The translations under genes were made by a program, and so were the position numbers. A stretch of 56,628 nucleotides of DNA, from positions 1-56,628 of the forward strand of contig JAGAAO010000018.1 in NCBI GenBank assembly GCA_017615275.1. Reading direction: 5' to 3'. Of this stretch, positions 2,078 to 56,373 are shown one piece after another; position 1 is the stretch's first letter; every line of letters begins with the position of its first letter. A model generated the notes under the pieces. It saw nothing but the letters and a program-made list of their open reading frames with translations. It made no database searches and was not told where the DNA came from. The DNA comes from Butyrivibrio sp. (GTDB taxonomy: Bacteria > Bacillota > Clostridia > Lachnospirales > Lachnospiraceae).

Positions 2078-3124
2078 ATGTCTTTAGAAGAATATAAGGG
2101 TGTATTTATATTTGCTCAGCAGGTAGACAATGAACTTTCAAACATTGCACTTGAGCTTCTGGGCAAAGCAAAGAATCTTGCAGAAGATCTTGATGAGAAA
2201 AAAGTTACTGCAGTATTACTTGGAAGCGGAGTAAAGGGTCTTGCTGACAAGCTTGCCGAGTATGGTGCAGACAGAGTAATATTGGTTGATGATCCTGCTC
2301 TTAAGGATTACAGAACAGAGCCTTACACACATGCTCTTGCATCTGTTATCGATGAGTTTAAGCCTGAGATCCTCCTTGTTGGTGCTACAGCAATCGGTAG
2401 AGATCTTGGCCCCAGAGTATCATCAAGAGTACATACAGGACTTACAGCTGACTGTACAAGTCTTGATATCGGTGATTTCCCGCTTAATCCGGCTCCCGGA
2501 CAGGAACAGAAGCACAAACAGCTTCTTATGACACGTCCTGCATTCGGCGGAAACACAATAGCAACAATTGCATGCCCTGACTTCCGTCCTCAGATGGCTA
2601 CGGTACGTCCCGGTGTTATGCAGAAGATCGATCCTATCAAGGGTGCAAAGGCAGAGGTTGTAGAATTCAATCCCGGATTCGTAGAGAACAACTGCTATAC
2701 AGAGATCGTAAAGATCGTAAAGGAAGCATCAAGCGTAGCTGATATCCAGGCTGCTAAGATCCTTGTATCAGGTGGTCGTGGAGTTGGTTCTGCAGAGAAC
2801 TTCAAGCTTCTTGATGACCTTGCAGAGGCTCTTAACGGAACAGTTTCATGCTCACGTGCCGTTGTAGATTCAGGCTGGAAGCCCAAGGATCTTCAGGTTG
2901 GACAGACTGGTAAGACAGTTCGTCCCGCTCTTTACTTTGCTATCGGTATTTCAGGTGCTATCCAGCACGTAGCAGGTATGGAAGAGTCAGACATCATCAT
3001 CGCTATCAACAAAGATGAGAATGCTCCTATCTTTGATGTAGCTGATTACGGTGTAGTAGGAGATCTTAACAAGATCCTTCCTGTACTTACAAAGCAGATC
3101 AAGGAAGCTTTAGCTGAAAAGTAA
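2078..3124 (+). CDS. etfA: Electron transfer flavoprotein, alpha subunit
   Basis: Large, FAD-binding subunit of EtfAB, partner of etfB and electron donor to Bcd. It has 348 residues. The C-terminal FAD domain is clear: GGRGVGSAENF near residue 232, then GQTGKTVRPALYFAIGISGA and the HVAGMEESDIIIAINKD block. There is no ferredoxin-like extension at the N-terminus, as is found in some other EtfA proteins. The AAAAGGAG ribosome binding site is well spaced. A good intrinsic terminator follows at about 3158, so this is probably the last gene of the bcd-etfBA unit. Confidence 0.95.
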   Translation: MSLEEYKGVFIFAQQVDNELSNIALELLGKAKNLAEDLDEKKVTAVLLGSGVKGLADKLAEYGADRVILVDDPALKDYRTEPYTHALASVIDEFKPEILLVGATAIGRDLGPRVSSRVHTGLTADCTSLDIGDFPLNPAPGQEQKHKQLLMTRPAFGGNTIATIACPDFRPQMATVRPGVMQKIDPIKGAKAEVVEFNPGFVENNCYTEIVKIVKEASSVADIQAAKILVSGGRGVGSAENFKLLDDLAEALNGTVSCSRAVVDSGWKPKDLQVGQTGKTVRPALYFAIGISGAIQHVAGMEESDIIIAINKDENAPIFDVADYGVVGDLNKILPVLTKQIKEALAEK

Positions 3125-3157
3125 GCGGAACTTCCTTAGATGAATATTGTGTAAAAA

Positions 3158-3196
3158 GGGGTGCTTATCTAACCATAAGCACTCCTGATTTTTTTC
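3158..3196 (+). terminator. Intrinsic terminator after etfA
   Basis: The stem GGGGTGCTTAT (3158-3168) pairs with ATAAGCACTCC (3175-3185), with one G-U pair and a 6-nt loop. A run of seven T follows after three bases. It ends the bcd-etfBA unit and separates it from cbiM. Confidence 0.85.
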
Positions 3197-3286
3197 ATAA
3201 AAATATCCCCCTGGGGGGCTTGTGAAGCGCTTTATTTCTGACATATACTTTTTGTGAAAAATATATCAGTATTGGAGGATAAAGCT

Positions 3287-4294
3287 ATGCATATGGCAGA
3301 TGCGCTGATTGCACCCGCGGTTGCAGGTACAATGTATGTGTTGTCAACAGGAGCGGCAGGTGTTTCTGTAAAAAAAGTAAGAGAAGAAAGTGATGAATCC
3401 AAGATACCTGTGATGGGTGTAATGGGAGCGTTTGTATTTGCGACTCAGATGCTCAACTTCACTATTCCGGGAACGGGATCGTCGGGACATCTTTGCGGAG
3501 GCATGATGCTTTCTGCAATGCTCGGACCCTTTGCGGGATTCCTTACTATGATAGGAGTGCTTCTCGTACAGTGCTTACTGTTTGCAGACGGCGGTCTGAT
3601 GGCACTTGGATGTAATATATGGAATATGGCATTTTACGGGTGCTTTGTAGGAGCTTTACTTATATGGCGTCCGATAATGAAGAAAGGGGCAACAAGAGCA
3701 AAGATAATCGCAGCGTCGATCATCGGATGCGTTCTTACGTTGCAGATGGGAGCTTTCTCTGTTACTATCGAAACACTGATCTCCGGTATTTCAGAGCTTC
3801 CTTTTTCAACATTCCTTGCTACGATGCAGCCTATACATCTTGCAATCGGATTTGTTGAAGGACTCATTACTTCAGCGGTTCTTATCTTTGTAAATGAGGC
3901 TAGACCTGAGATGCTTTGGGGTGTTGGCGAAGAGACCAAGAAAGAAGGCAAGCTTAAGTTTAAGACAACGATTATTGTTATCGCTGTGGCAGCAGCAATC
4001 TGCGGAGGCTTCGTATCACTTTATGCTTCTGCATTCCCTGACGGACTTGAGTGGTCCATGGAGCAGGTTGCCGGAACAACCGAGCTTGAGGCAGAAGGAA
4101 CTGTATATGAGACTGCAGAGTCTATACAGGAGACAACATCTCTTTTGCCTGATTATGCATTTAAAGACAGTGAGTCAGCTGCAGGAACAAGCTTTTCCGG
4201 AATTGTAGGTGCATTTATCGTTGCAGCTCTTTCAGCTGTTTTCTGCTATGCTTTCAAATTCTTTAGGAGAAATACAGAGACCAAAACTGCTTAA
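3287..4294 (+). CDS. cbiM: Cobalt ECF transporter substrate-binding component, CbiM fused to a CbiN-like domain
   Basis: Membrane component that captures Co2+ for the CbiMNQO energy-coupling-factor importer. I start it at the ATG at 3287, 8 bp behind a GGAGG. This gives the N-terminus MHMADALIAP; in this family the terminal Met amine and His2 are metal ligands, which strongly supports the choice. Residues up to about 215 are the CbiM membrane domain. They are followed by a transmembrane helix, an extracytoplasmic stretch with FPDGLEWS and LPDY (the PDGLE/CbiN signature) and a last helix ending in basic residues. So CbiM and CbiN are one 335-residue protein and no separate cbiN is needed. Its stop overlaps the cbiQ start. 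Nickel as substrate is less likely but not excluded. Confidence 0.88.
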   Translation: MHMADALIAPAVAGTMYVLSTGAAGVSVKKVREESDESKIPVMGVMGAFVFATQMLNFTIPGTGSSGHLCGGMMLSAMLGPFAGFLTMIGVLLVQCLLFADGGLMALGCNIWNMAFYGCFVGALLIWRPIMKKGATRAKIIAASIIGCVLTLQMGAFSVTIETLISGISELPFSTFLATMQPIHLAIGFVEGLITSAVLIFVNEARPEMLWGVGEETKKEGKLKFKTTIIVIAVAAAICGGFVSLYASAFPDGLEWSMEQVAGTTELEAEGTVYETAESIQETTSLLPDYAFKDSESAAGTSFSGIVGAFIVAALSAVFCYAFKFFRRNTETKTA

Positions 4295-5064
4295 TGAATT
4301 CTATAGAAAAAAAGCTTTTGGAACTGAATAAGATAGAAGATATTCAGCAGCGTTCCCATTGGATGAATTCGCTTCATCCTCTGGGGAAGCTGCTTATTAG
4401 CGTTATATACATATTGTGTGTGACGTCGTTTGATAAGTATGATATCGTACATCTTATACTGATGTCCGTGTATATCATCTTCACCTTTGCGATTGGAGAA
4501 CTCTCTTTTAAAGAGGGAATATATCGCATGAGATTGATTCTTCCGCTGCTTATTTTTGTCGGGATATTCAATCCTTTTTTGGACAAAAATATAGTACTCA
4601 TTGCGGGATATGAAGTCAGAGGCGGAATAGTGTCGATGCTGACGCTTGTTGTAAAAGGTGTGTACACTGTTCTTGCAGTCTATGCGCTTATAGCAACGAC
4701 GCCTATAGATGATATCTGTTATGCGCTCAGAATAATTAAGATCCCAAAGATAATAGTGATAGTCATCATGCTGATATACAGATATATAGACGTGATGTCG
4801 AAAGAGGCAGACAGGATATTCACATCTTACAGGCTGAGAGCTCCGGGACAAAAAGGAATTGCTTATAAATATTGGGGAGCACTTGTCGGACAGTGGCTTC
4901 TTCGAAGCATGGACAGAGCACAGATTGTCTATGAGAGCATGACGCTCCGAGGATTTAGGGGGGATTTTATTCCTTCGAAAAAAAGTGTGAGAGCATTGGA
5001 TGTAATCTATCCTATTGTATGGATCGCTATTTTTATGATCATAAGATTTGCAGTTACAGGTTGA
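4294..5064 (+). CDS. cbiQ: Cobalt ECF transporter transmembrane protein CbiQ
   Basis: Conserved membrane component (EcfT type) that couples the ATPase to the CbiM substrate unit. It has 256 residues with several hydrophobic segments. Near residue 170 is an EADRIFTSYRLRAPG stretch, and near 210 ESMTLRGFRGDF. These are the two Ala/Arg-Gly coupling helices that dock on the ATPase in this family. The ATG overlaps the last base of the cbiM stop (TAATG), which indicates translational coupling. The open frame on the opposite strand over this gene is a shadow. Confidence 0.88.
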   Translation: MNSIEKKLLELNKIEDIQQRSHWMNSLHPLGKLLISVIYILCVTSFDKYDIVHLILMSVYIIFTFAIGELSFKEGIYRMRLILPLLIFVGIFNPFLDKNIVLIAGYEVRGGIVSMLTLVVKGVYTVLAVYALIATTPIDDICYALRIIKIPKIIVIVIMLIYRYIDVMSKEADRIFTSYRLRAPGQKGIAYKYWGALVGQWLLRSMDRAQIVYESMTLRGFRGDFIPSKKSVRALDVIYPIVWIAIFMIIRFAVTG

Positions 5065-5080
5065 TGAAAAAGAGGTTTTT

Positions 5081-5800
5081 ATGAAAACAGGTGTTAGCGG
5101 CGAGCTTCTGAATATTTCGGGACTTAGTTTTTCATATGAAAAAGACAAAGAAGTGCTAAAAGATATTGATCTTAAGGCGGTTGACGGAGAGAGCATCGCC
5201 CTTGTCGGAGCAAACGGAATAGGAAAGTCCACACTCATGAAACTCATGGTTGGATTATATCTTGATTTTTCGGGAGATATTACGGTCGCAGGACATAAGA
5301 TGTGCGCGGCTAATCTTGATCACATACGAGAGCATATCGGTTATGTTTTTCAGGATTCCGACAGTCAGCTCTTTTTATCGACAGTTGAAGATGATGTGGC
5401 ATTTGGACCGCGCAACTACGGGCTTTCTGAAGAGGAAGTGGAACAAAGAGTTGCAAAAGCACTTGGACAGGTTGGCATAGAGAATCTCAGAAAGAGTAAG
5501 ACTTACAAGCTTTCGGGCGGGGAAAAGAAACTTGCGTCGATCGCAACTATTCTTTCGATGGAGCCTGATATAGTGATCATGGATGAGCCCTCGGTTGCAC
5601 TTGATCCCAGAAACAGACGCAATCTGATAATGGTTCTCAAAGACATAAGAGGTCTTAAGATAATAGCATCCCACGATCTTGATTTTGTGATGAATACATG
5701 TGAGAGAACGATACTTTTGGATGATGCGACAATAGTGGCAGACGGTGCAACAAAAGATATTCTTGGAAATGAAGCGCTGTTGCAGGCACACGGACTATGA
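5081..5800 (+). CDS. cbiO: Cobalt ECF transporter ATP-binding protein CbiO
   Basis: ABC ATPase that energises the CbiMQ importer. The ATG at 5081 lies just behind an AGAGGT site and 16 bp after cbiQ; an upstream TTG in frame would overlap cbiQ and lacks a binding site. The 239 residues contain Walker A GANGIGKST (about residue 43), the Q-loop YVFQDSDSQLF typical of CbiO/EcfA, the signature LSGGEKK, Walker B IVIMDEPS and the switch His in ASHDLDF. It is the last gene of the cbiMQO unit. Confidence 0.92.
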   Translation: MKTGVSGELLNISGLSFSYEKDKEVLKDIDLKAVDGESIALVGANGIGKSTLMKLMVGLYLDFSGDITVAGHKMCAANLDHIREHIGYVFQDSDSQLFLSTVEDDVAFGPRNYGLSEEEVEQRVAKALGQVGIENLRKSKTYKLSGGEKKLASIATILSMEPDIVIMDEPSVALDPRNRRNLIMVLKDIRGLKIIASHDLDFVMNTCERTILLDDATIVADGATKDILGNEALLQAHGL

Positions 5801-5827
5801 TACAAATATGAAGTAAACATAAATACG

Positions 5828-5856
5828 TTGAGTGCTAAACATTAAAGTGATAAAAT
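5828..5856 (+). promoter_or_regulatory. Promoter for thiolase gene
   Basis: A sigma-A-like pair TTGAGT (5828-5833) and TAAAAT (5851-5856) is separated by 17 bp, upstream of the thiolase ribosome binding site GGAGGT at 5881. It allows thiolase to be transcribed separately from the cobalt operon. Confidence 0.55.
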
Positions 5857-5890
5857 AATAATTGGTACAGTAGTAATTTTGGAGGTGTGT

Positions 5891-7072
5891 ATGTTGAGAA
5901 AAGTAGTATTGGCAGGTGCATGCAGAACTGCCATCGGAACAATGGGAGGAGCGCTCAGTACAACTCCTGCTCCTGCTCTTGGAACAGTTGTAATTAAGGA
6001 AGCGTTGAACCGCGCAGGTGTTAAGCCTGAGCAGGTTGATGAAGTGTATATGGGCTGCGTTATTCAGGCGGGACTCGGACAGAATCCTGCAAGACAGGCA
6101 GCTATCAATGCGGGGATACCGGTTGAAGTTCCTGCAACAACAATAAATGTTCTTTGTGGATCAGGACTTCATTGTGTAAATCTTGCGGCAAAGCTTATTT
6201 CAATGGGAGATGCCGATATCATAGTGGCAGGTGGTATGGAGAATATGTCCATGGCGCCTTACCTTATGCAGCAGGGACGTTACGGATATCGCATGGGCTC
6301 CGGAGAGCTTCAGGATGCAATGATAAAGGATGCCCTTACCGATGCATTCGGCGGATATCACATGGGAATAACCGCTGAGAATATTGCAGAGCAGTGGCAC
6401 CTTACAAGAGAGCAGCTCGACGAGTTTGCCGCATGGTCACAGAACAAGGCTGAGAAAGCCATTGCAGAAGGAAAGTTCAAGGAAGAGATCGTTCCTGTTG
6501 AGATAAAGAAAAAGAAAGAGACAATTCTTTTTGACACAGACGAAGGACCGAGAGCCGGAGTAACAGCTGCGGGTATCGCACACTTAAAGCCTGCGTTCAA
6601 GAAGGATGGCGGTGTTGTAACGGCAGCAAATTCATCCGGAATCAACGATGCCGCTTCTGCAATAATCGTAATGAGTGAAGAGAAGGCAAAAGAGCTTGGT
6701 GTTAAGCCTCTCGGAACGTGGATTGCCGGAGAACTTGCAGGCGTAGAGCCCAGCATAATGGGAATTGGACCTGTTGCCGCAACACAGAAAGTTATGAAAA
6801 AAGCCGGATATTCAATCGGTGATTTTGATCTTATCGAAGCAAACGAAGCTTTTGCCGCACAGTCGGTAGCGGTTCAGCATGATCTTGGATTCAGCAATGA
6901 CGTGCTCAACGTAAACGGTGGAGCTATTGCTTTGGGACATCCCGTTGGATGTTCGGGAAACAGAATTCTCGTAACTCTTCTTTATGAGATGCAGAGAAGA
7001 GATGTACATAAGGGACTTGCCACATTGTGTGTAGGTGGCGGAATGGGATGTGCTGCTATTGTAGAGCGATAA
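5891..7072 (+). CDS. thlA: Acetyl-CoA C-acetyltransferase (thiolase)
   Basis: Condenses two acetyl-CoA to acetoacetyl-CoA, the first step of the butyrate pathway that Bcd/EtfAB completes. The start is the ATG at 5891, 4 bp after GGAGGT; the longer frame from an upstream TTG would put the ribosome binding site inside the gene. The 393 residues are the usual thiolase length. The nucleophilic Cys is C89 in NVLCGSGLH. Also present are EANEAFA, the catalytic His in [14 protein letters not shown] and the second Cys in TLCVGGGMG, so the enzyme should be active. Biosynthetic direction is inferred from context. Confidence 0.94.
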
Positions 7073-7097
7073 ATGACTTAACTCATGGAGGCTTTTG

Positions 7098-8231
7098 ATG
7101 GCTGATCGTTCAATTTTGCTGGTAGATGATAACGACATAAACAGAGGTATCCTTGCAGAAATATTCAAAGATAAATACGACATTATTGAGGCAAGTGATG
7201 GAATGGAGGCTGTGCAGCTTATTGTTGAGCAGACTTCAAAAATTGCCGCGGTTTTGTTGGATGTGATCATGCCGGGGATGGACGGATATGCCGTGCTTGA
7301 GGCAATGGTCAAAAAAGACAACCTCAATGAAAAAATTCCTGTGCTTATGATAACTGCGGATACGTCAACGGAGGCTGAGAGAACCAGCTACGAGAAAGGC
7401 GCGGCTGACGTCATACATAAGCCGTTTGATCCTGTGATCGTAGACAGGCGTGTGTCAAAGGCAATCGAGCTGTATGACCACAAGAATAATCTTGAGACGA
7501 AGGTAGACGATCAGACAAGAGTTCTGAAAAAGCAGTTTATTTATCTCAAGAAGCAGGAAGAAAAGCTTCGCTACAGCAACGAGAAAGTTATTGATACGAT
7601 AGCTACAATCATCGAGTTCAGAAACATGGAGTCGGGTTATCATCTTAAGAGGATCAAGGGCTTTGTAAGAATACTCGCCCTAACCGCAATGAACAATTAT
7701 CCTGAGCTGGGGCTCACTCCTCATATGATAGAGATAATAACTCAGGCTTCAGCCATGCATGATGTCGGAAAGATATCCGTTCCCGATTCGATACTTCTTA
7801 AACCGGGAAGACTTACTTCTGAAGAATTTGAAGTGATGAAATCTCACACTACAAGAGGTTGTGAGATAATAGAAAAACTCAAGGACATTCAGGACAAAGA
7901 GTATTATGAGGCTTGTCTTGATATATGCAGACATCACCACGAGAGGTATGACGGAAGGGGATATCCCGACGGCTTAAAGGGCGAAGAGAACTCAATGGGA
8001 GCTCAGCTTACAGCCCTTGCGGACGTATATGATGCTCTTGTAAGTGACAGAGTATATAAATCCGCATATCCTGTGGATAAAGCCTATGAAATGATCAAGA
8101 ACGGCGAATGCGGTGTGTTCTCGCCTAAGCTTCTTGCATGTTTTGAATTTGCAAGACCTGACATGGAGAAGCTCGTAGCCCAGACCAAAGCTGCGGAAGC
8201 AGCCGAGAAGGGCATGTATTCACCATATTAA
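7098..8231 (+). CDS. Response regulator with HD-GYP domain, probable c-di-GMP phosphodiesterase
   Basis: Two-component output protein. Residues 1-120 form a receiver domain with acidic pocket DD at 10-11, phospho-acceptor D55 in LLDVIMPGMDG and the conserved Lys in HKPFD. A linker of about 40 charged residues, probably coiled coil, follows. The HD-GYP domain has H220-D221 in AMHDVGKI, then HHERYDGRGYPDG near residue 280, so the metal ligands and the GYP motif are intact. Members hydrolyse c-di-GMP. No histidine kinase gene is adjacent, so its partner is unknown. The start is the ATG at 7098, behind GGAGG. Confidence 0.88.
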   Translation: MADRSILLVDDNDINRGILAEIFKDKYDIIEASDGMEAVQLIVEQTSKIAAVLLDVIMPGMDGYAVLEAMVKKDNLNEKIPVLMITADTSTEAERTSYEKGAADVIHKPFDPVIVDRRVSKAIELYDHKNNLETKVDDQTRVLKKQFIYLKKQEEKLRYSNEKVIDTIATIIEFRNMESGYHLKRIKGFVRILALTAMNNYPELGLTPHMIEIITQASAMHDVGKISVPDSILLKPGRLTSEEFEVMKSHTTRGCEIIEKLKDIQDKEYYEACLDICRHHHERYDGRGYPDGLKGEENSMGAQLTALADVYDALVSDRVYKSAYPVDKAYEMIKNGECGVFSPKLLACFEFARPDMEKLVAQTKAAEAAEKGMYSPY

Positions 8232-11919: not shown

Positions 11920-11994
11920 CGGGGTGTGGCTCAGCTTGGCTAGAGCACCTGCTTTGGGAGCAGGGGGTCGCAGGTTCGAATCCTGTCACCCCGA
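11920..11994 (+). tRNA. tRNA-Pro (anticodon TGG)
   Basis: Acceptor stem CGGGGTG/CACCCCG, anticodon stem CCTGC/GCAGG with loop TTTGGGA, T loop TTCGAAT, discriminator A. First tRNA of the cluster. Confidence 0.97.
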
Positions 11995-12034
11995 TCAGGG
12001 GTAAGCTAATAACAAGATATATAATTTAATATGT

Positions 12035-12105
12035 GCGGGTGTAGTTCAATGGTAGAACACTAGCCTTCCAAGCTAGATACGTGGGTTCGATTCCCATCAC
12101 CCGCT
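12035..12105 (+). tRNA. tRNA-Gly (anticodon TCC)
   Basis: Acceptor GCGGGTG/CACCCGC, anticodon stem CTAGC/GCTAG with loop CTTCCAA, T loop TTCGATT, discriminator T. A tandem repeat begins directly after it. Confidence 0.97.
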
Positions 12106-12106
12106 T

Positions 12107-12271
12107 GAGCAGAGCACTTGCTGGCTGAGAGAACTTGCCGAGTTTTTTCGAGGTTAGTTCGAACGTCTTCCGTCGAGCAAAGCGAGAGCGGAAGTACCTT
12201 TTTCAGTCCGAGGCTAGTGCGAGCCATGGGTGAACACTTAACGAGGCTTGCCGAGTTTAGTGAGAATCCCA
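12107..12271 (+). repeat. Family A repeat, tandem copy 1
   Basis: First of two nearly identical ~165-bp units between tRNA-Gly and tRNA-Arg(TCT). It contains the hairpin CTTCCG (12167-12172) / CGGAAG (12189-12194) and several variants of a CGAG-TAGT-GAA motif (for example at 12149-12163 and 12209-12224). No credible protein is encoded; open frames across it only reflect the repeat. The interval 12106-12510 holds nothing else I can identify. Confidence 0.8.
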
Positions 12272-12442
12272 GAGCAGAGCACTTGCTGGCTGAGAGAACT
12301 TGCCGAGTTTTTTTCGAGGTTAGTTCGAACGTCTTCCGTCGAGCAAAGCGAGAGCGGAAGTACCTTTTCAGTCCGAAGCTAGTGCGAGCCATGGGAAATA
12401 CTTAACGAGCAGATTTTTTGAGCGAGTCTAGTGAGAATTCCA
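12272..12442 (+). repeat. Family A repeat, tandem copy 2
   Basis: Second copy, repeating unit 1 almost base for base over the first ~130 bp, including the hairpin CTTCCG (12333-12338) / CGGAAG (12355-12360). The 3' part diverges: a T-run and GAGCGAGTCTAGTGAGAATT replace the shorter end of copy 1. The CTTAAC...CAGAT tail resembles the end of the copy upstream of etfB. Confidence 0.8.
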
Positions 12443-12510
12443 AGTAGCAGGGTACTTTAAGTTTTCGGATTTTGGTGCGTTTGCATTTGGCTCATATCTG
12501 CCACTAACAT

Positions 12511-12584
<74 letters not shown>

Positions 12585-12593
12585 TTTTTATAT

Positions 12594-12668
12594 GGTGGCT
12601 ATAGCGTAGTTGGTTAACGCGCCAGATTGTGGTTCTGGAGACCGAGGGTTCGAGTCCCTCTAGCCACC
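12594..12668 (+). tRNA. tRNA-His (anticodon GTG)
   Basis: Acceptor GTGGCTA/TAGCCAC with an encoded extra G at -1 (12594) opposite C73, the hallmark of tRNA-His. Anticodon stem CCAGA/TCTGG, loop TTGTGGT. Confidence 0.97.
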
Positions 12669-12714
12669 CTTTGTAATTGCTACAGCGGAGTATAGCGTTA
12701 AGCTCTTACAATCT

Positions 12715-12786
12715 TGGGCTATCGCCAAGCGGTAAGGCACAGCACTTTGACTGCTGCATACGACGGTTCGAATCCGGCTAGCCCAG
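12715..12786 (+). tRNA. tRNA-Gln (anticodon TTG)
   Basis: Acceptor TGGGCTA/TAGCCCA, anticodon stem CAGCA/TGCTG with loop CTTTGAC, discriminator G. Substrate of the GlnRS encoded at 53.4 kb. Confidence 0.96.
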
Positions 12787-12829
12787 TTAGCGGTGAGATG
12801 TTTCGTCGCAAGATTACAATTTAATACAT

Positions 12830-12902
12830 GGGATATTAGCTCAGGTGGTAGAGCACTTGACTTTTAATCAAGTTGTCGGGGGTTCGAATCCCCCATGTCT
12901 CA
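12830..12902 (+). tRNA. tRNA-Lys (anticodon TTT)
   Basis: Acceptor GGGATAT/ATGTCTC with G-U pairs, anticodon stem CTTGA/TCAAG with loop CTTTTAA, T loop TTCGAAT. Last tRNA of the cluster. Confidence 0.96.
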
Positions 12903-26528: not shown

Positions 26529-26543
26529 CTGTATAAGAAACAG

Positions 26544-26709
26544 TTGGATAGAGGTTGCGTATTTAATAAGTAATGTCGTTGATGTGACAGGCACAGAAGA
26601 TGCGACATGAAAGGGAAATATGCCGAAAGGGTTGATTACCTGTATATCAATTACTTGGGCATACGGTTAAGAACCGTATGACTGTCATCTGAGGATGGGG
26701 CGCTATCAA
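26544..26709 (+). promoter_or_regulatory. Lysine riboswitch (L box) aptamer
   Basis: The conserved L-box elements appear in order: GATAGAGGTTGCG near 26548, AATAAGTAATG, GAAAGGGAAATATGCCGAAAG near 26608, CTTGGGCATACGG, ACTGTCATCTGAGGATGGGG and GCGCTATC. Helix P1 is formed by GTTG(G)ATAG at the 5' end and CTATCAAC at 26703-26709. It controls the lysine branch genes dapA and dapB downstream, presumably lowering expression when lysine is plentiful. Confidence 0.93.
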
Positions 26710-26744
26710 CATTAGTATTTTTATTATAATGAAAAGACTATGTT

Positions 26745-55178: not shown

Positions 55179-56033
55179 ATGGCGGATATTTTTTCAGGAC
55201 TTGAAAAGCTTGGACTTGGAAACATTGATGGAGGAAATCTTTTTGAAGATCCCAACAAGAAGGAATCCAATGTCAAGAAGGAAGAACCCAAGAAGAAGCT
55301 GACACTGATCAATGAGGAAGATTATCTTTTTGATAAAAAATATAAGTGTCCTATCTGTGATTCTGATTTTACGGTAAAGACCGTTCGTACGGGAAAAGTA
55401 AGAATGAAGTCTGTGGATGTGGATCTTCGTCCCGATTACTCAGAAGTTGATCTTACAAAGTATGACATAATTGCTTGTCCTGAGTGCGGATATGCAGCAC
55501 TGGGAAGATATTTCACAACACTTACCAAGTATCAGATCGATGATATCAGAGCCAAGATCTGCATGAATTATAAGAAGCAGGAGTTTAAGGATCCTATCTA
55601 TTCTTATGATCATGCGAAGAGTCTGTATCAGCTTGCACTTGCAAATGCAGTGGTTAAGAAGGCTAAGAACAGTGAGAAGGCTTACATCTGCCTGAAGACA
55701 GCCTGGGTTATCAGAGGTGAGACTCAGAGGCTTGATCAGAGCGAAGCGGATTACGAGAAGAAGAAAAAAGAGAACGATGCTCAGGAAGTTGAGCTTTTAA
55801 AGAATGCGCTGAACGGTTTTGTTATGGCAAGGCAGTCTGAGGATTTCCCTATCGCGGGAATGGATTCGACAACTCTTGATTATCTGATCGCAGCGCTCGC
55901 ATACGAGACTGATCAGTTTGATATTGCGACCAAGATGATCTCAGAGCTTCTTACATCACGTACAGCAAACAGTCGTATCAAGGATAAGGCACGTGCCCTC
56001 AAGGATCTCGTTGCCGCAAAGAAGCAAGGGTAA
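55179..56033 (+). CDS. DUF2225 zinc-ribbon protein
   Basis: It has 284 residues. Residues 15-40 are charged and Lys-rich. A zinc ribbon follows: CPIC near residue 58 and CPECGYA near 105. From about 130 the chain is all alpha, with TPR-like repeats (YDHAKSLYQLALANAV). DUF2225 proteins are common in Firmicutes and of unknown function. AAAAGAGGT lies before the ATG. A giant inverted repeat begins 5 bp after the stop. Confidence 0.9.
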   Translation: MADIFSGLEKLGLGNIDGGNLFEDPNKKESNVKKEEPKKKLTLINEEDYLFDKKYKCPICDSDFTVKTVRTGKVRMKSVDVDLRPDYSEVDLTKYDIIACPECGYAALGRYFTTLTKYQIDDIRAKICMNYKKQEFKDPIYSYDHAKSLYQLALANAVVKKAKNSEKAYICLKTAWVIRGETQRLDQSEADYEKKKKENDAQEVELLKNALNGFVMARQSEDFPIAGMDSTTLDYLIAALAYETDQFDIATKMISELLTSRTANSRIKDKARALKDLVAAKKQG

Positions 56034-56037
56034 CGTC

Positions 56038-56310
56038 GTAGAAAGGTCGCATAAGACCGGTTGGCTGCAAACGCCTATAAGACTGATTTTCTTGCGATTT
56101 CGTATTTTGACATTCATGGTATAAAAAATATTAGGGTTATTCATTTCTCGCTCCAAACTCGCCCGCAAAAGCGGGCTCAGACAAATGGAGCGAAAACGAA
56201 ATGAATAACCCTTCTTTTTTATACTCATGAATGTAACAAAATACTCAAACGCTGCGAAAAATCAGTCTTATAGGTGTTCTGCGGCCATTCCGGTCTTATG
56301 GGATTTCTAC
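56038..56310. repeat. Giant imperfect inverted repeat (~273 bp) with terminator-like core
   Basis: The left arm (56038-56155) and right arm (56186-56310) are complementary over about 120 bases with small gaps. The conserved blocks are GTAGAAA, CATAAGACCGG, CCTATAAGACTGATTTT, ACATTCATG, GGGTTATTCATTTC and CGCTCCA. The 30-nt loop holds GCCCGC-AAAA-GCGGGC. Around the core, GAAATGAATAACCC is followed by TTCTTTTTT, so it could terminate DUF2225 transcription. Two similar units, CATAAGACCGG and TATAAGACTGA, recur within each arm. The interval 56034-56519 contains no gene. Confidence 0.85.
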
Positions 56311-56373
56311 TTCTCGGTTATATGCGCTCACGCGCAGGGATTTGTTTTGGGGGCAGCATGTTTCTTGGCTTGA

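Follow-up and report, generated by a model that had tools for sequence, protein, structure and literature searches.

The 273-base near-palindrome at positions 56038–56310 of the window (the whole stretch of 56,628 nt from Butyrivibrio sp. analysed here) is probably an old member of a non-autonomous, MITE-like family whose elements are palindromic nearly from end to end and measure about 250–350 bp in the genus. The preliminary description had offered three options, a MITE-like element, a structured RNA and a terminator island, and the first is the best supported of them: copies are dispersed in relatives, hairpin-free sites exist after the same DUF2225 gene and sister subfamilies carry inverted ends and direct repeats, although repeats in the window's own subfamily are not significant. 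We file the element as MITE-like in its working and give it no named family, since the search turned up no autonomous partner and its own subfamily shows no significant target duplication.

Folding confirms the giant intergenic hairpin with arms of ~120 nt that had been described, at z-scores of about –15 to –19. For 56000–56340 the RNA fold energies are –168.9 kcal/mol (+ strand, z –18.1) and –160.6 kcal/mol (– strand, z –15.2), with none of 100 shuffles as low for either, while folds of 56038–56310 with DNA parameters give z of –18.0 and –19.2 (0 of 200 shuffles as low, each). Either strand thus forms one long hairpin, far below shuffled sequences with both parameter sets. By inverted-repeat and folding evidence the element as a whole, to which no strand is assigned, has a left arm at approximately 56038–56160 and a right arm at approximately 56176–56310 (both given on the + strand). 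Its apex GCCCGC-AAAA-GCGGGC, correctly described before, is located at 56161–56176 within a match to the pattern TGTYTGAGC-n-GCGAGTTT at 56155–56183 on the – strand, called here the T-strand; this motif recurs elsewhere. Below the apex, four bases of the T-strand 5' arm (56194–56197, – strand) are unpaired in the folds, and a similar bulge is present in relatives. The repeat unit proposed inside the arms is weak: CATAAGACCGG and TATAAGACTGA are identical at 8 of 11 positions, but relatives mostly have the inner unit (TATAAGG...) alone.

The site is also as first described. The DUF2225 gene (55179–56033, + strand), whose product matches PF09986 with E 1.3e–53, has its stop codon ending 4 bases before the hairpin. 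A 90-aa ORF runs across the hairpin mechanically, and the element is otherwise short and non-coding. The window is contig C83 of an 84.8%-complete assembly (G000) whose 99 contigs total 3.18 Mb, and the contig stops 318 bases past the hairpin. Elsewhere in the window we noted a lysine riboswitch at 26541–26713 and a cluster of tRNA genes at 11920–12902.

Sequence and apex-pattern searches find a single copy in this 84.8%-complete assembly, while the search of relatives by BLAST and a covariance model yields dispersed copies. The case named beforehand as a refutation, a sole copy in the genus with freely evolving arms and no compensation, does not apply. BLAST with the window hairpin detects relatives of it in 6 of the 79 genus genomes, among them G023 with 12 matches (some being the opposite strand of one copy), G069 with 8, G004 with 3 and G005 with 2. 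The 22 copies from relatives that were folded are giant hairpins, one of them (L008) truncated at one side. A covariance model was built from 22 cores (56105–56242 in the window, either strand; model match 56103–56243), the alignment taking 22 of 23 copies and omitting L008 with its truncated right arm. With up to 41 candidates per genome scored, the model matches 20 of the 79 genus genomes at E ≤ 1e–4; in a family-wide sample it matches 11 of 397, including the genus members G000 and G003, and the nine remaining matches have E of 2e–9 to 3e–5. The copies from this sample (L093–L109) have unrelated arms and an identical apex, two of them with a one-base variant; the model is biased towards apex-bearing copies because it was built from copies with that apex. 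The apex pattern itself has 234 matches, spread over 14 of 79 genus genomes, and reading it backwards as a control gives 4; G001 contributes 82, G002 93 and G069 11, the last with 21 model matches when both strands are counted. Six of the weak genus model matches listed (L075, L079, L081, L082, L091 and L092) lack this apex, and we noticed that these are hairpins with a comparable lower stem, TTCATGAG.. / ..CCATGAA.

Arrangement of the copies differs between genomes. All 10 neighbour pairs less than 1.3 kb apart in G002 are inverted (–,+), against an expectation of ~2.3 neighbours irrespective of order, and G001 has no pairs that close. Those of the G002 pairs that were read (L385–L394) have one hairpin near a gene end and its partner ahead of the next gene. 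In another case (L395/L396) G005 and G004 resemble each other more closely in a two-hairpin intergenic region than at the end of the gene directly upstream, suggesting recent exchange. One G069 copy (L024, contig C13) has outer arms as in the orthologs of G004 and G005 with a different core hairpin and tip. Two further copies (L411, L427) bear an extra small palindrome on the tip, as if a second element had inserted there.

Comparison of DUF2225 loci, 30 fetched and 15 usable, reveals the hairpin after the gene in the window and in G023. The closest hairpin-free loci (G050, G004 and G005) have the stop codon followed, no more than ~40 bases on, by a terminator-like hairpin and a convergent gene. 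At the G023 site a truncated hairpin is followed by a 4.2 kb block, a second hairpin and then the terminator-like hairpin. The block, with the two inverted hairpins that flank it, lies at 2655–7256 of the fetched stretch (G023:C1:383000-393000) and encodes MarR, GNAT, an ArsP-type permease, a thioredoxin-like protein and an AAA_14/DUF4143 protein.

Terminal inverted repeats common to copies were found in G001/G002 and in G319. Elements of G001 and G002 are ~300 bp long and bounded by CTCAAACTTCSCAC and its complement; the four similar copies of G319 have ends near GACAAACGCATGAAT, and two of them are flanked by 10–11 bp repeats. Among 90 short-loop copies, ends are recognisable in 24, mostly from G001 and G002. 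Direct repeats of at least 7 bp flank 8 of the 24, where 200 shuffles give 0.5 on average and never more than 2. When the genus and other Lachnospiraceae loci are pooled into 73 non-redundant copies, repeats of at least 8 bp flank 7 (shuffled mean 0.9, maximum 3 in 60 shuffles); one copy, L198, has an 11 bp direct repeat. Centre-deleted derivatives and truncated ones keep the common ends. In the window's own subfamily, repeats of at least 8 bp were seen in 0 of 20 copies and repeats of at least 7 bp in 2 of 20, which is not significant (shuffled mean 0.47, maximum 2), and no target duplication is visible by eye around the window copy. A set of copies from several phyla gives a similar picture, with repeats of at least 8 bp in 2 of 69 (shuffled mean 0.7, maximum 2, not significant).

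These observations are consistent with the following course of events. The element would have inserted between the DUF2225 stop codon and the terminator-like hairpin known from relatives, its family spreading by transposition that duplicates an AT-rich target of ~8–11 bp, and its mobilisation would be provided in trans by a putative transposase; we infer that the window's subfamily moves as its sisters do. After insertion the arms would drift away from those of other copies while their complementarity is kept by DNA-level exchange between them, either by recombination or by template switching.

The search for a mobilising enzyme covered several places. The exact end CTCAAACTTCSCAC occurs 12 times in G001 and 16 times in G002; inspection of 370 nt at each of the 10 places, out of these 28, that have no listed apex showed no transposase bounded by exact ends. 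Genes were checked near four places (two in L433, one each in L434 and L440): the eight genes beside two single-ended places gave no match to a transposase family, and the region between two end sequences in L433 contains ordinary genes. No IS with matching ends was found in G001 or G002. In 120 retrieved stretches, each no longer than 8 kb, no cluster of proteins encoded near the elements is widespread, the largest being present at 8 and 7 loci. Plasmids gave no match for the window hairpin or for two elements of other phyla. In phages, a 60-nt element query gave matches to 4 records, none covering more than 50% of it and two being the same 18 apex bases in two records of one Pseudoalteromonas phage (E 5), and viral contigs contain one exact apex match. 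Such scarcity in plasmids and phages is unusual for mobile DNA.

Strong covariation of the arms could be read as the mark of a structured RNA, that is a 3' UTR element, an RNase III substrate or an sRNA kept by compensatory mutation, which we consider unlikely. Standard pairs fill 96.5% of the 1076 pair cells of the 22 copies, double changes occur at 32 of 49 hairpin pairs and covariation was as high in 0 of 500 shuffles. The lysine riboswitch RF00168, with matches in 57 of 79 genomes of the same genus, provided a control (22 of 31 sequences used, the 31 being 30 fetched loci and the window) of practically equal covariation score, 0.425 versus 0.424 for the hairpin. The two differ in how pairs change. 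When per-pair rows are summed, the hairpin has 158 two-sided and 11 one-sided changed pair cells, while the riboswitch has 156 and 72 (Fisher exact test, P = 3e–10), so that the one-sided share is ~5-fold lower in the hairpin. The two arms have thus both changed with few wobble intermediates, a pattern that favours DNA-level copying of arms rather than RNA selection. In addition, the orthologs L009 and L010 have two arm differences reciprocally swapped, which suggests arm-to-arm exchange; their remaining differences are mostly one-sided, and so are the few between L395 and L396. Some features do agree with a folded and selected strand. In the 150 copies of the genus set, unpaired bases fall mostly on one arm, the T-strand 5' arm (1209 versus 222), and isolated G-T exceed A-C on the T-strand (207 versus 140, P = 0.0004); in a broad set of 34 copies the G-T excess is 32 versus 14. 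There may thus be some selection on the folded T-strand, and this modest excess stays on the side of the RNA reading, which the scarcity of one-sided (G-U) changes relative to the riboswitch otherwise disfavours. Many copies also lie directly 3' of stop codons, but no single transcribed strand is kept: in gene-proximal, non-redundant copies the T-strand tends to be antisense at gene 3' ends (21 of 32) and sense at gene 5' ends (10 of 14). Neither the window hairpin nor those from 16 broad loci match an Rfam family at gathering score, and sub-threshold matches are weak. A trend for the 3' side of the T-strand to be nearer the gene was considered and dropped: it is 63 versus 22 with near-duplicates included (85 usable of 146 copies), 31 versus 15 with near-duplicates removed (P = 0.026) and 34 versus 23, not significant, in the broad set (P = 0.18).

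A folded single-stranded DNA site bound by a protein, comparable to REP with TnpA-REP or attC with integron integrase, would have the apex and the 5'-arm bulge as its recognised parts. We regard this as rather improbable, even if it fits an apex that is common to different phyla on unrelated arms, the genus-set excess of unpaired bases on the 5' arm and the position of the first indel from the apex, which falls on the 5' arm in 70 of 96 non-redundant hits and on the 3' arm in 20 (6 have no indel), at a median of 10 nt out. The arm bias does not extend to the broad set, where unpaired bases are nearly even (191 versus 170 in the 34 copies). Y1 transposases are present at E ≤ 1e–5 in 60 of 79 genus genomes, but G069, with its 11 apex matches, has none at this threshold, and the lack of a widespread neighbour protein in the 120 stretches also counts against this reading. 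Apex orientation shows no replichore bias (34 of 80 and 37 of 86), and a regional strand bias considered at one stage was gone once full match lists were used. Finally, Y1 transposition is not expected to leave duplications of 8–11 bp such as those seen here. That the hairpin serves the DUF2225 gene as an oversized intrinsic terminator or as a terminator island is very improbable: its start 4 bases past the stop codon would suit this role, but the T-runs noted before, though present, lie within the 3' arm paired with an A-run, the stem has no trailing T-tract, scoring for terminator-like sites gave none at the hairpin, and a separate terminator-like hairpin occupies the site in hairpin-free relatives and lies beyond the second hairpin in G023.

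The elements can be compared with known systems. According to a review (PMC2229807), bacterial MITEs with long stem-loops such as ERIC/IRU, Correia/NEMIS, RUP and RPE are ~100–200 bp long, and like them our elements are small, non-coding, intergenic and dispersed, form a long stem-loop and have inverted ends and target-site-like repeats, these last in sister subfamilies. Relative to those, the hairpin elements are larger (~250–350 bp) and palindromic nearly throughout, their arms vary widely among copies while the apex is constant, and the repeats are of 8–11 bp. With REP sequences and RAYT (PMC3733652) they share multicopy intergenic palindromes and inverted pairs, but they are several-fold longer, have target-site-like repeats and reach 11 copies in G069, which has no Y1 transposase. 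Intrastrand triplex repeats (PMC4666352) are likewise widespread structured DNA repeats with no known mobility enzyme; their G/C-rich motif is unrelated in sequence to the apex. Giant palindromes bearing this apex have no description that we found in the open-access text searched, and their working probably resembles that of known MITEs.

The apex is not confined to the genus. A scan for its exact form with a GAA loop, run over genome contigs, returned at least 120 stretches, and among the matches listed are Bacteroidales, Parabacteroides, Ralstonia, Variovorax, Lachnospiraceae, Selenomonas, Desulfobacterales and Nitrospirae. For 75 of the 96 non-redundant hits with full flanks among the matches listed, the arms are self-complementary beyond the 99th percentile of swapped partners. 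Such a spread of the apex may reflect common descent, transfer or a shared recogniser. The apex includes GCGAAGC, an unusually stable DNA mini-hairpin. No description of the motif was found among the open-access papers listed, as judged on titles and the starts of abstracts, and those listed for the exact motif appeared unrelated. In many copies from Pseudomonadota and Bacteroidota (L128, L147, L116, L129 and others) we observed a second, pyrimidine-rich hairpin after the first, for example CTTTCTTTG..ACTTTCTTTGG..CAAAGAAAGT, which could form an intrastrand triplex.

We tentatively put forward the possibility that the apex, together with a bulge ~10 bases below it and usually on the 5' arm, is a common signature of giant palindromes in several phyla that is read by one shared machinery; this bold reading is suggested by arms, ends and hosts being otherwise unrelated. 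In its boldest form, these elements may be copied via a single-strand hairpin, with one arm templating the other, which, if true, would account for matched arms without G-U intermediates. The contrast with the riboswitch carries a practical warning, as strong covariation alone is no proof of a structured RNA. Long palindromes in bacteria are usually destroyed or counter-selected, and yet G001 and G002 hold 82 and 93 apex matches. A tip common to copies from several phyla, on otherwise dissimilar arms, would open a way to study how giant palindromes persist, spread and keep their arms matched.
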